The position numbers and the translations under genes were made by a program. A DNA stretch of 64,000 nucleotides from the NCBI RefSeq assembly GCF_003340475.1, contig NZ_QBKA01000002.1, positions 2,489,501-2,553,500 of the forward strand, read 5' to 3'. Each line of letters starts with the position of its first letter. The first letter of the stretch is position 1. Below are positions 43,886 to 48,027 of the stretch, piece by piece. Origin of the DNA: Alteripontixanthobacter maritimus (GTDB taxonomy: Bacteria; Pseudomonadota; Alphaproteobacteria; Sphingomonadales; Sphingomonadaceae). The notes below the pieces were generated by a model. The model had not been told where the DNA came from. It ran no database searches and worked only from the letters and a program-made list of their open reading frames with translations.

Positions 43886-43978
43886 GTGCATTAATTAACC
43901 AAGGCATATCAACGCCTGCGGGAAGTGCACCCGTCATACTTACCACATGTTAACTGTCTTTCTCCTATCGCAGCCTCG

Positions 43979-46339
43979 ATGGGGCTCAAACACAGCATCC
44001 GGCGTGCCAGAAGGCGATTTTCGACCCGGTGGTTGATAGGCAGCCGCTTAGGCCAATTCATTCTGGCCGCTCTTCTCAGCATCTGCGTCATTTTCCCGCT
44101 TCGGCTTGGGGAATTGGTCGATATGGGTGTCTGGATGGTGGAGGCCGCGGCATTCGACAGCGAGCCTTCGGGTGATATCGCGTTTGTCGGGCTGGACGAG
44201 GACTTCTCCGAACAACCGCTGGAACAACAGGCCGATCAGCTGGGAGCGCTGCTCCAGTCGCTGGACGCGGCCGCGGTAAAGGATGTCTACCTGGATATTC
44301 CGGAACTGGGCGAACAATTGTCGAAAAGTTCCGGCACGTACGACCAGGCCGAATTGCGCGAAGCATTCCGTACGTGGGACGGCGGCCTGCATATCGTGCG
44401 GCGCACCTCGATCGCCGAAGACGGAACCGTTACCCTGCAGCCGAACTGGGGCAAAGCCCTCGGTGAGCCACGGTCGGTAGCGTATGACGAGCAGTTCGAT
44501 GTGTGGGGATACACCTGGTATTCGAGGCGTCCGAGCGAGAACATCGATGTGGGGCTACCCTGGTATGTGCAATCCCTTTCCGGGCAGGACAAAAGGATCG
44601 AGAATACGATTTTCGTCGACTACACTCTAGATCGGTCAGCCATTCCGAATTGGAGCGCTCAAACCCTCGCAAACCAATCGTTCGACGTTGATAAGTTGGC
44701 AGGAAAGAAAATCGTCGTCGGCAGCACGTCGGGTGTGGTTGCTATCCCCTCCGAATTATCCGTGCCCGGCCCGTACGTAGCGATCTTGGCTGCAGAAAGC
44801 GTCACTTCTACGTGGTGGTCAGAGCCACTTACTTGGCCGCCGTTTATCGTTACACTTCTGTTGTTAGCCGTTGCGGTTTCTCTTTCCGGAACCAGTTGGC
44901 GTATTGCCGCTTATGGCGTAGCCGTCATTAGTCCAATCCTGTTCATTGTGTTCGATGGCCTAACCGCCGCAACTTTCAGCGCAGGCGTCGCTTTTGCACC
45001 TCTAGGGATCTTTGCGCTGCTGAGGGCGACGGCTAGGCTCGGTGCTGGTTTCGGCATCGACCAATCCACCGGATTGCAGACATTCGACGCGCTGGAAACG
45101 GACTTGGCCCGTAATATTGCCGGCGAGGCTCAACCTCTTATTATTGCGCGTATCCATCGGCATGAGGACATTGCCGCATTGTTAAGCGAAAGCCAACGCG
45201 TGGAGTTCGTTTGCGCGATTGCCGGGCGTATCCGCGCATTCGACAAAGATTTGGTTGTCTACACCAATGGTCGCGATCGGATGGCTTGGCGAATGCCCGG
45301 TTTGTCACGCGACGAGCTAGCAAACCACCTGCGCGGTTTGCGCGCGTTGTTGTCGCAACCTCTGTCGGTCGGCAACACTCTGATCGATGCTCTGGTCACA
45401 TTCGGTATAGATGATAGCCAAGAATTACGTCCGCGCGCGCGGATAGCGTCGGCAAATGGCGCCGCCGATAAAAGTGATGAAGCCTATCACCCGGTTGTAT
45501 TTTCAGCCGGAGACGAACGCGAAGAAGAGCGACTGTGGGGTATGGGCCTCCAGTCGAAAATCGATCAGGCGCTCGAGAACGGAGACATATACACGGTCTA
45601 CCAGCCGCAAATCTCTTTGGCCGATGGAAGTTTGTCGGGCGTAGAGGTTCTGGTTCGCTGGCATGATGCAGAACGCGGGAACATCACGCCGTCATTTTTT
45701 ATCGAACAATGTGAAAAGACTGGCCGGATGCTCAGCCTGACCGATACGGTCCTACGCCGGGCGCTTGATGAACTTTCACAGGTTTGGGCTAGCGCCGAAC
45801 CGTTTTCAATATCGATCAATGTGTCGGCGACTGTTCTCGACGATATGAGACTGGTCGATGTCGTCGAACGTGCGTTGATGCAAAGTACTATCGATCCGCG
45901 CTATATGGTGCTCGAAATTACCGAGACCTCTCGGATCGGCGATATGGACATGGCGCGGGCAATTTTCGCCCGGTTCAAGGGTATGGGCATCAAGATGTCG
46001 ATTGATGATTTCGGCATGGGTTGTGCAAATTTCGAAGTGCTGGACAACCTTCCATTCGACGAAATTAAGATCGACCGCACGTTCGTTGCGAAAATGAATC
46101 ACTCACCGCTTTGCCGCGGTATTGTCGCTGGCGTCATCCAGCTCGGCGCCGAAACCCGTGCACGGGTTGTTGCTGAGGGTGCGGAAGATGCCGCAGCCAT
46201 TGCTAACCTTCGGCGCATGCAGTGTCCGATCGTGCAAGGCTTCGGCATAGCGAAACCATTATCCACTGCTGACCTCATACAATTTGCGAAGAGAATACCG
46301 TTTCGCCAGGAGCGTTCCAAAGCGGGACAAACTTGGTAA
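43979..46339 (+). CDS. CHASE2-(degenerate GGDEF)-EAL membrane protein
   Basis: A cyclic-di-GMP signalling protein of about 786 residues. A basic N-terminus and one span (FILAALLSICVIFPLRLGEL) lead into a periplasmic CHASE2 sensor (AAFDSEPSGDIAFVGLDEDF) closed by about three helices. A GGDEF-like domain follows in which the signature is reduced to NGRDRM, so no cyclase activity is expected. The EAL domain keeps the Glu of EVLVRW, INVSA, EITETS, the double Asp of IDDFGMG, KIDRTF and VAEGAED, so phosphodiesterase activity is likely. The start is unsure: a GTG at 43925 is also in frame and neither start has a Shine-Dalgarno sequence. Its second half is more AT-rich than the surroundings. Confidence 0.85.
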   Translation: MGLKHSIRRARRRFSTRWLIGSRLGQFILAALLSICVIFPLRLGELVDMGVWMVEAAAFDSEPSGDIAFVGLDEDFSEQPLEQQADQLGALLQSLDAAAVKDVYLDIPELGEQLSKSSGTYDQAELREAFRTWDGGLHIVRRTSIAEDGTVTLQPNWGKALGEPRSVAYDEQFDVWGYTWYSRRPSENIDVGLPWYVQSLSGQDKRIENTIFVDYTLDRSAIPNWSAQTLANQSFDVDKLAGKKIVVGSTSGVVAIPSELSVPGPYVAILAAESVTSTWWSEPLTWPPFIVTLLLLAVAVSLSGTSWRIAAYGVAVISPILFIVFDGLTAATFSAGVAFAPLGIFALLRATARLGAGFGIDQSTGLQTFDALETDLARNIAGEAQPLIIARIHRHEDIAALLSESQRVEFVCAIAGRIRAFDKDLVVYTNGRDRMAWRMPGLSRDELANHLRGLRALLSQPLSVGNTLIDALVTFGIDDSQELRPRARIASANGAADKSDEAYHPVVFSAGDEREEERLWGMGLQSKIDQALENGDIYTVYQPQISLADGSLSGVEVLVRWHDAERGNITPSFFIEQCEKTGRMLSLTDTVLRRALDELSQVWASAEPFSISINVSATVLDDMRLVDVVERALMQSTIDPRYMVLEITETSRIGDMDMARAIFARFKGMGIKMSIDDFGMGCANFEVLDNLPFDEIKIDRTFVAKMNHSPLCRGIVAGVIQLGAETRARVVAEGAEDAAAIANLRRMQCPIVQGFGIAKPLSTADLIQFAKRIPFRQERSKAGQTW

Positions 46340-46343
46340 ATAT

Positions 46344-46372
46344 TTGACAAACTTCATTGGTTAATGCATTTT
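46344..46372 (+). promoter_or_regulatory. Possible promoter of the 13-codon unit
   Basis: A consensus -35 TTGACA (46344-46349) stands 17 bp before CATTTT (46367-46372), a weak -10. Transcription would begin near 46379, about 25 nt before the tiny reading frame. The -35 match is exact and the -10 is poor, so the call is tentative. Confidence 0.35.
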
Positions 46373-46403
46373 CATAGTGAACTCGTACTGAAAGGAGCTC
46401 GCT

Positions 46404-46445
46404 ATGTGGATCATTGAAGCACTGTTCGGCACAGGCCGCCGCTAG
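46404..46445 (+). CDS. Tiny peptide gene (13 aa) with strong ribosome-binding site
   Basis: The reading frame MWIIEALFGTGRR ends in TAG. It is preceded by AAAGGAG, close to a perfect Shine-Dalgarno sequence, 7 nt before the ATG. The peptide is a short amphipathic hydrophobic segment with a basic end. The stop codon sits inside a perfect small inverted repeat, GCTAG-AAA-CTAGC (46441-46453), and a strong terminator follows at 46470. The downstream gene (gltD) is on the other strand, so this is not a leader peptide for it. It may be a free microprotein or the coding part of a small RNA of about 120 nt. Function unknown; I recognise no family. Confidence 0.5.
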   Translation: MWIIEALFGTGRR

Positions 46446-46469
46446 AAACTAGCAGAACCAGATAAGTTT

Positions 46470-46500
46470 AAGGGCCCGAATTCCGGGCCCTTTTTCTTTT
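46470..46500 (+). terminator. Rho-independent terminator after the tiny gene
   Basis: A 9 bp stem AAGGGCCCG/CGGGCCCTT with the loop AATTC is followed by TTTCTTTT. It lies 25 nt after the TAG of the 13-codon frame. Confidence 0.92.
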
Positions 46501-46590: not shown

Positions 46591-48027
46591 TCAACGCGGA
46601 AGTTGGCTGGTTCCCATCAGCGCCTGATCGACCGACCGCGCGGCCTGCCGGCCTTCGCGAATCGCCCACACCACCAGGCTCTGGCCGCGGCGCATATCCC
46701 CGCAAGCAAACACATTTTCCCGAGTCGTTACGTAGTTTTGCGTATCTGCGTCGACATTGCCGCGATCCGATAGCGCAACGCCCGACTGTTGAAGCATTCC
46801 GGGCTTTTTTGGTCCGATGAAGCCCATCGCGAGCAGGATCAGGTCGGCCTGAATGGTAAATTCGCTGCCTTCCACTTCTTTCATCTCGCGGCCTTCCCAT
46901 TCGATGCGCACGCATTCGAGGCCGGTTACATCGCCGTCCTTGCCCGCCACGCGTTTGGTCAGCACCGCCCAATCGCGGTTCGCGCCTTCTTCATGGCTGG
47001 TAGTGGTGCGCATTTTTACCGGCCAGTCCGGCCAGGTGAGCGCCTTGTCTTCGCGTTCCGGCGGCTGCGGCATGATCTCCAGCTGCGTCACGCTTTTGGC
47101 GCCTTGCCTGTTGGATGTGCCCACGCAATCGCTCCCGGTATCGCCGCCGCCAATCACGATCACGTGCTTGTCTTTGGCAGTGAGCGTTCCGCGCGGCGCG
47201 GCGCGGGTTTCGTCGTCGCCCGCGTTCCTCTTGTTCTGCTGGGTAAGGAATTCCATCGCCAGCCGCACGCCGGACAGTTCCGCGCCCGGAATGGCGAGCG
47301 CGCGCGCATCTTCACTACCTCCTGCAAGCACCACTGCGTCGAAATTCTCTTCCAGCGTGGCAAACGCGATATCGACGCCCACTTCCTTGCTGGTGCGGAA
47401 CTCCACGCCTTCTGCCTCCATCTGCACCGCGCGGCGGTTGATGAGGTGTTTTTCCATTTTAAAGTCGGGAATACCGTAGCGAAGCAGGCCACCGATCCGA
47501 TCGCTCTTTTCGAACACGGTCACCGAATGCCCCGCGCGGGCCAGTTGCTGCGCGCAGGCGAGGCCCGCGGGCCCCGATCCGATTATCGCCACCGACTTGC
47601 CGGTCTTGGCCTTCGGTATCTGCGGCATGACCCAGCCTTCGTCCCATCCGCGATCGATAATGGCGGCTTCGATGCTCTTGATGGTCACCGGCTCGTCGGT
47701 GATGTTGAGCGTGCAGCTTGCCTCGCACGGGGCGGGACAGATGCGGCCGGTGAACTCTGGGAAGTTGTTGGTAGAATGCAGCACGGTGAGCGCGTTCTTC
47801 CAGTCGCCTTCATAGACCAGGTGGTTCCAGTCCGGGATGATGTTGTTCACCGGGCAGCCGTTATGACAATACGGAATGCCGCAATCCATGCATCGCGCTG
47901 CCTGCTGTTTCAACGCGTCCTCGGTGTGCGGAATGGCAAATTCGCGGTAATGCGCCAGCCGCTCTTCCGGCGCCGCATAGCTGCGATCCTGCCGCTCGAT
48001 TTCGAGAAAACCGGTGTCCTTGCCCAT
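46591..48027 (-). CDS. gltD: Glutamate synthase subunit beta
   Basis: The small NADPH-oxidising subunit of glutamate synthase, which passes electrons to GltB. The 478 residues show the N-terminal Cys-rich iron-sulfur part ([20 protein letters not shown]), the FAD-binding [20 protein letters not shown], the NAD(P)-binding [20 protein letters not shown]-type site ([20 protein letters not shown]) and a C-terminal [20 protein letters not shown]. The start [12 protein letters not shown] is 11 bp after the gltB stop; the frame is open further upstream within gltB. Confidence 0.96.

Follow-up and report, generated by a model that had tools for sequence, protein, structure and literature searches.

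Several genes of phage T4, namely e, soc, 49 and I-TevI, are translated in a start-site-dependent manner through structures formed in their leaders (PMC3014915). The locus described here resembles them in that its ribosome-binding site and start codon would be masked in a long read-through RNA, and its predicted promoter within the 5' strand of the hairpin would, as in the T4 genes, give an RNA without that strand. It differs from the T4 genes in being a chromosomal bacterial gene with a tiny product and another type of promoter, and the case made here consists of prediction and covariation only. A second point of comparison is provided by CtrA, for which TTAACCAT-type half-sites have been reported and whose activating sites are reported to overlap the -35 element (PMC6180460). 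CtrA-activated promoters of Alphaproteobacteria and the promoters of this locus have TTAACCAT-type half-sites in common, overlapping the -35 element in one of the two promoter types found; in contrast, the sites here are predicted, there is a single box per genome, and in the promoter type of the window the half-site lies in the spacer. With regard to the product, a passage of PMC11955535 citing Aoyama 2022 describes SpfP, a 15-aa product of the small RNA Spot 42. In both cases a protein of about 15 residues would be encoded by a small transcript that has a promoter and a terminator to itself, whereas the present unit is not known to act by pairing, adjoins a phosphodiesterase gene and has a masked start, and no sequence relation between the two is expected. 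Compared with the genes of type I toxin-antitoxin peptides, and on copy number and location only, the gene reported here is single copy and fixed beside one chromosomal gene.

The window, a stretch of 64,000 nucleotides from the 2.68 Mb genome of Alteripontixanthobacter maritimus (contig NZ_QBKA01000002.1, positions 2,489,501 to 2,553,500), carries on its forward strand a gene for a CHASE2-type EAL c-di-GMP phosphodiesterase (43925-46339), which invariably lies just upstream of the microprotein gene. A preliminary description of this DNA had proposed a stand-alone transcription unit encoding 13 residues, and most of its parts were recovered in the sequence, on the same strand: an exact TTGACA (46344-46349), the frame MWIIEALFGTGRR followed by a stop (46404-46445, with codons at 46404-46442 and TAG at 46443-46445), an inverted repeat GCTAG-AAA-CTAGC spanning the stop (46441-46453), and an intrinsic terminator (46470-46500) whose stem of 9 bp, 7 of them GC, and 5-nt loop (46470-46492) are followed by TTTCTTTT. 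The Shine-Dalgarno AAAGGAG (46391-46397), a motif that all members possess, is present as well, but it stands 6 nt before the ATG at 46404 and not 7. The unit does lie by itself between the EAL gene and the convergent gltD, which ends at 46591, but it is not independent, since it and the EAL gene before it go together one-to-one; similarly, the repeat at the stop exists, but the important hairpin is the one that covers the Shine-Dalgarno and start codon (46373-46406, 5' arm 46373-46384, 3' arm 46395-46406). The RNA from 46373 to 46500 folds at -44.8 kcal/mol (z -3.6), better than 200 of 200 shuffles. The perfect repeat at 46441-46453 is stable within the fold of the whole RNA; no such repeat was seen at the stop among the relatives read. 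That the window unit is a microprotein gene, about 120 nt long and predicted to be transcribed separately, and a divergent member of a family, is well supported by sequence comparison. The reading favoured here, with a probability of roughly 0.66 for the whole, is that of a real microprotein gene belonging to a lineage-specific family of 10-41 aa that follows the CHASE2-EAL gene, with a start-site gate, a CtrA promoter and a peptide that would modulate the enzyme.

The 171-bp unit had no relative by blastn in 60 genomes, the peptide being too variable, and the exact window peptide had none by pattern in 299 genomes or in the genomic contig collection; the EAL protein scanned against that collection, and tblastn against plasmids, likewise gave no match. 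The upstream EAL gene was used as the search anchor. Homologues were obtained in 115 of 299 genomes of the bacterial family, defined as the GTDB family of the window, and the stretch 3' of 70 EAL matches, the window included, was read across about 35 GTDB genera. An ORF of 10-41 codons with a Shine-Dalgarno was found directly 3' of the CHASE2-EAL gene in 65 of the 70 regions, a tally made up of 62 by rule and three added afterwards. By the automatic rule without the hand-completed cases, the ORF was present in 84% of the regions, whereas the same rule was satisfied on the reverse strand in 0%, by 0.5% of shuffles and by 0.25% of random window segments, and it is these controls that carry the weight of the figure, because the rule was derived from the same data. 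The five regions lacking the ORF (L077, L079, L089, L093 and L101) belong to EAL matches whose alignment starts beyond query residue 200, one of them being the second EAL gene of its genome, and some of the five are probably non-orthologous. A pattern blind to both the peptide and the EAL gene, TTTAC-N10-GGTTAA-N12..42-AGGAG-N3..12-ATG, matched in 30 of the 299 genomes and once in reversed controls; where coordinates could be compared the matches lie at EAL 3' ends, and all of those retrieved open a family microprotein.

Most members share the core [FI]W[DEN]W[LIFV][FLM]G, as in MFRFWDWLFPGKSG, MGGFWDWLLGGRHSG, MWSFWDWLFPG, MFRSIWDWIFGN, MSNRKVMQAPNVRREVSVSRRANQQVRGFWDWLIGGHWRLG, MKKRPPVKGFWSWLFGGGWSNAGSGG and the 10-residue MWNFWRWMFG. 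Forty members, picked for possessing the core, were aligned; all of them have the first core Trp, and conservation is 90% or higher at the second Trp and at a Gly. In some genera (L009, L012, L014, L018 and L023) a basic-rich N-terminal extension, MSNRK-x-MQAP, precedes the aromatic core. At another locus (L084, genome G245) the EAL gene is followed by MLDLIVGFWWEPLKNLLFPYV, which fits the core loosely, with the box, the hairpin over the Shine-Dalgarno and the terminator present; this peptide may have been replaced or have strongly diverged. The nearest to the window peptide was returned by tblastn of the 13-mer on the EAL loci: MWNFWEWLLGTGRRQQ, about 60 nt past the EAL stop in L026, has 9 of 13 residues in common with MWIIEALFGTGRR at the same location. 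The preliminary description had suggested a search for the same peptide and terminator in related genomes, and homologous ORFs beside the EAL gene are found in about 35 genera. No Pfam or NCBIfam family was matched by five longer members even at E 5, and Rfam at its gathering score gave nothing for the window and 18 relatives other than tRNA genes nearby; weak Rfam matches to SNORA2, mir-128 and ctRNA were rejected as chance. In the open-licence literature no report of the family was found, nor did FWDWLFGG occur in the texts searched. Functional proteins of very small size are a known kind, SpfP being one; what appears new, as far as tested, is this family, together with the masking of its start and the phosphodiesterase gene with which it is paired.

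The EAL protein of the window matches EAL PF00563 at E 4e-55 (Pfam). Pfam does not find CHASE2 in this protein itself, but does so in the orthologues L013 and L027; since CHASE2 is present in these orthologues and the window enzyme retains, on inspection, the usual EAL motifs, the product is likely an active membrane-anchored phosphodiesterase. A profile of the 40 aligned members gave 18 matches at E < 0.005 in 149 genomes of the order, all within the family of the window, and at every one of these loci an EAL gene stands beside the match. The same search in 190 genomes of the class gave nothing convincing, and matches at E 0.005 or worse outside the family, both within the order and across the class, with no EAL gene nearby where checked, were treated as chance. 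No convincing copy away from the EAL gene was found in either set. The wider gene order is not conserved: the genes flanking the pair at 29 loci form 16 downstream and 15 upstream contexts, which group largely by genus. As the pair is constant while its other neighbours vary, a functional tie can be argued. That the peptide acts with the adjacent phosphodiesterase is proposed tentatively, at somewhat short of even chances, on the basis of linkage alone. The strongest contender is that peptide and enzyme are functionally unrelated and that the linkage reflects inherited gene order only. Such an explanation, less probable but to be taken seriously, draws on linkage being the sole evidence for the tie and on the unit having a promoter-like box and terminator of its own; it accounts less well for a pair that stays together amid shifting neighbours and has no convincing copy elsewhere.

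If the peptide does act with the phosphodiesterase, its composition offers a suggestion as to where. Most members consist of a short aromatic core (Trp-x-Trp), some with the basic N-terminal extension, and are too short to cross a membrane, which suggests an interfacial peptide. AlphaFold predicts one helix across the core at low confidence (pLDDT 64), too uncertain for a fold search. With lower confidence, the peptide may therefore be placed at the inner membrane surface, where it would modulate the neighbouring membrane-anchored phosphodiesterase.

The promoter of the window is recognisable by comparison only. A plain sigma-70 consensus scan leaves it unflagged, and with a 17-nt spacer the -10 element is only the weak CATTTT (46367-46372). 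Among 37 members of the same promoter type, however, the -35 element is conserved as TTTACA/TTGACA, position -11 being A in 86% and position -7 being T in 68%. This first type reads TTTACA-17-YATNNT with GGTTAA in the spacer (46359-46364 in the window); a second type reads TTGTTA(ACC)-17-TAATGT and carries the CtrA-like half-site on the -35 element. The predicted transcription start, about 46379 in the window, falls inside the masking strand in both types; in many cases a pyrimidine stands at this +1, which counts against the start-site reading. TTAACC or GGTTAA, a CtrA-type site, occurs 5' of 88% of members versus 4% in shuffles, and the promoter may, with lower confidence, be under CtrA. The box TTTACAAAC-N5-TGGTTAA is found in the window at 46344-46364 as TTGACAAAC... 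and, with up to 2 mismatches allowed, has a single occurrence in each of the 7 genomes searched, in every case before the microprotein gene. No further gene carries it in these 7 genomes, and hence no regulon can be read from it. A box occurring once per genome is unusual for the site of a global regulator.

The 50-nt leaders of the members fold with a mean z of -2.3. In an arm-swap test, which keeps the composition of the Shine-Dalgarno and anti-Shine-Dalgarno arms and breaks their co-inheritance, native arms pair at -12.4 kcal/mol versus -8.9 for swapped ones, a difference of 12 sd, and the window's own pair is stronger than 64 of 64 swaps with relatives; the masking hairpin is therefore an evolved RNA structure. 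By the same test the structure over the Shine-Dalgarno and start codon covaries, as would be expected of an arrangement like that of T4 gene e. Most of the masking strand lies 5' of the predicted transcription start, and truncation at the predicted +1 lowers the energy needed to open the ribosome site by 6.0 kcal/mol, compared with 1.1 for shuffled leaders (59 members, p 4e-11). In the window the opening energy falls from 13.9 to 7.8 kcal/mol: in the long RNA the AUG (46404-46406) is base-paired to 46373-46375, nucleotides that are missing from the short RNA, while mean pairing of the Shine-Dalgarno is unchanged (0.62 to 0.64), the change being confined to the start codon region. With moderate confidence, the hairpin may thus be regarded as a start-site-dependent translation gate. 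A transcript running on from the EAL gene would carry the masking strand and be poorly translated, one initiated at the unit's own promoter would begin within that strand, lose much of it and be translated, and the peptide would be made mainly when this promoter fires.

The same microprotein gene could instead carry a conventional switch, responding to temperature, an RNA-binding protein or a small RNA, in a transcript in which both arms are always present, whether made together with the EAL gene or begun at a more upstream site. Covariation of the arms indicates that an RNA containing both matters, inspection reveals no terminator between the EAL stop and the ORF, and transcription could begin at the A that is conserved at box position 24. 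Two different promoter types nevertheless place the predicted start within the masking strand, truncation there unmasks the start far beyond chance, and neither a ligand-like core nor a loop sequence was seen to be conserved, which makes a conventional switch unlikely and favours the start-site gate.

The window peptide lacks the Trp pair of the core; it aligns as MW-IIEALFGTGRR to MWNFWEWLLGTGRR, with Trp-x-Trp replaced. Another member that lacks Trp may be MIDLIAIALGSRRGS, which opens with GTG and is found about 61 nt past the EAL stop in G082 (L017), a locus with a long masking hairpin, GCAAGGTCT...AGACCTTGC. In both, the box, the hairpin and the terminator are retained and the aromatic core is gone, and the window peptide may be changed in, or losing, its function.

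Within genera, the core codons averaged per genus give pS 0.54 vs pN 0.24 (binomial p 6e-6), a result that describes the family core and not the window codons, no other genome of the window's genus being among the relatives. These within-genus pairs are the test relied on, an earlier choice of pairs by peptide similarity having been biased. By this comparison of homologous ORFs, the core codons are under purifying selection, and the amino-acid core is far better conserved than the DNA beneath it. An intrinsic terminator lies no more than 110 nt past the stop in 63 of 65 members versus 6% of shuffles. The microprotein gene put forward in the preliminary description is thereby borne out, with same-place homologues spread over about 35 genera, selection on core codons, a conserved promoter box, the hairpin at the Shine-Dalgarno and the terminator; the lack of codon-level conservation that it had named as fatal to the proposal does not apply to the family. 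Selection on the codons, together with a core kept far better than its DNA, leaders whose sequence is unconserved outside the box and the missing Rfam match, also makes it quite improbable that the locus encodes a dual-function or purely regulatory small RNA, in which a base-pairing RNA of 120 nt would be primary and the ORF secondary. The size of the unit, its promoter-like box and its terminator are compatible with such an RNA, as are the strong conservation of the leader hairpin structure and the persistence of hairpin and terminator in both Trp-less members, and a pairing role may exist besides coding. A chance ORF between two genes, to which the absence of relatives of the exact peptide and its DNA might have pointed, is very improbable and, for the family, already contradicted by the same-place homologues, codon selection, terminators and controls, and by the residues shared with MWNFWEWLLGTGRRQQ at the same position.

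Taken together, these data describe a protein family reaching down to 10 residues, of a kind that size-limited annotation is expected to miss, with relatives numerous enough for selection to show by sequence alone. In its boldest form, in which proteins of 10-13 residues would be the dedicated partner of one membrane c-di-GMP phosphodiesterase, with their synthesis licensed by the choice of start site at a CtrA-type promoter, the proposal is rather unlikely; if true, these members would rank with the shortest unprocessed proteins on record. Strictly paired as it is with a gene for a c-di-GMP phosphodiesterase, the peptide is a directly testable candidate regulator of this messenger. For the search for very small genes, the locus recommends looking beside a conserved gene for a promoter, a masked start and a terminator instead of for peptide similarity, and the covarying, start-masking hairpin that overlaps the promoter suggests that a trick of phage T4 operates in a chromosomal gene throughout a bacterial family.
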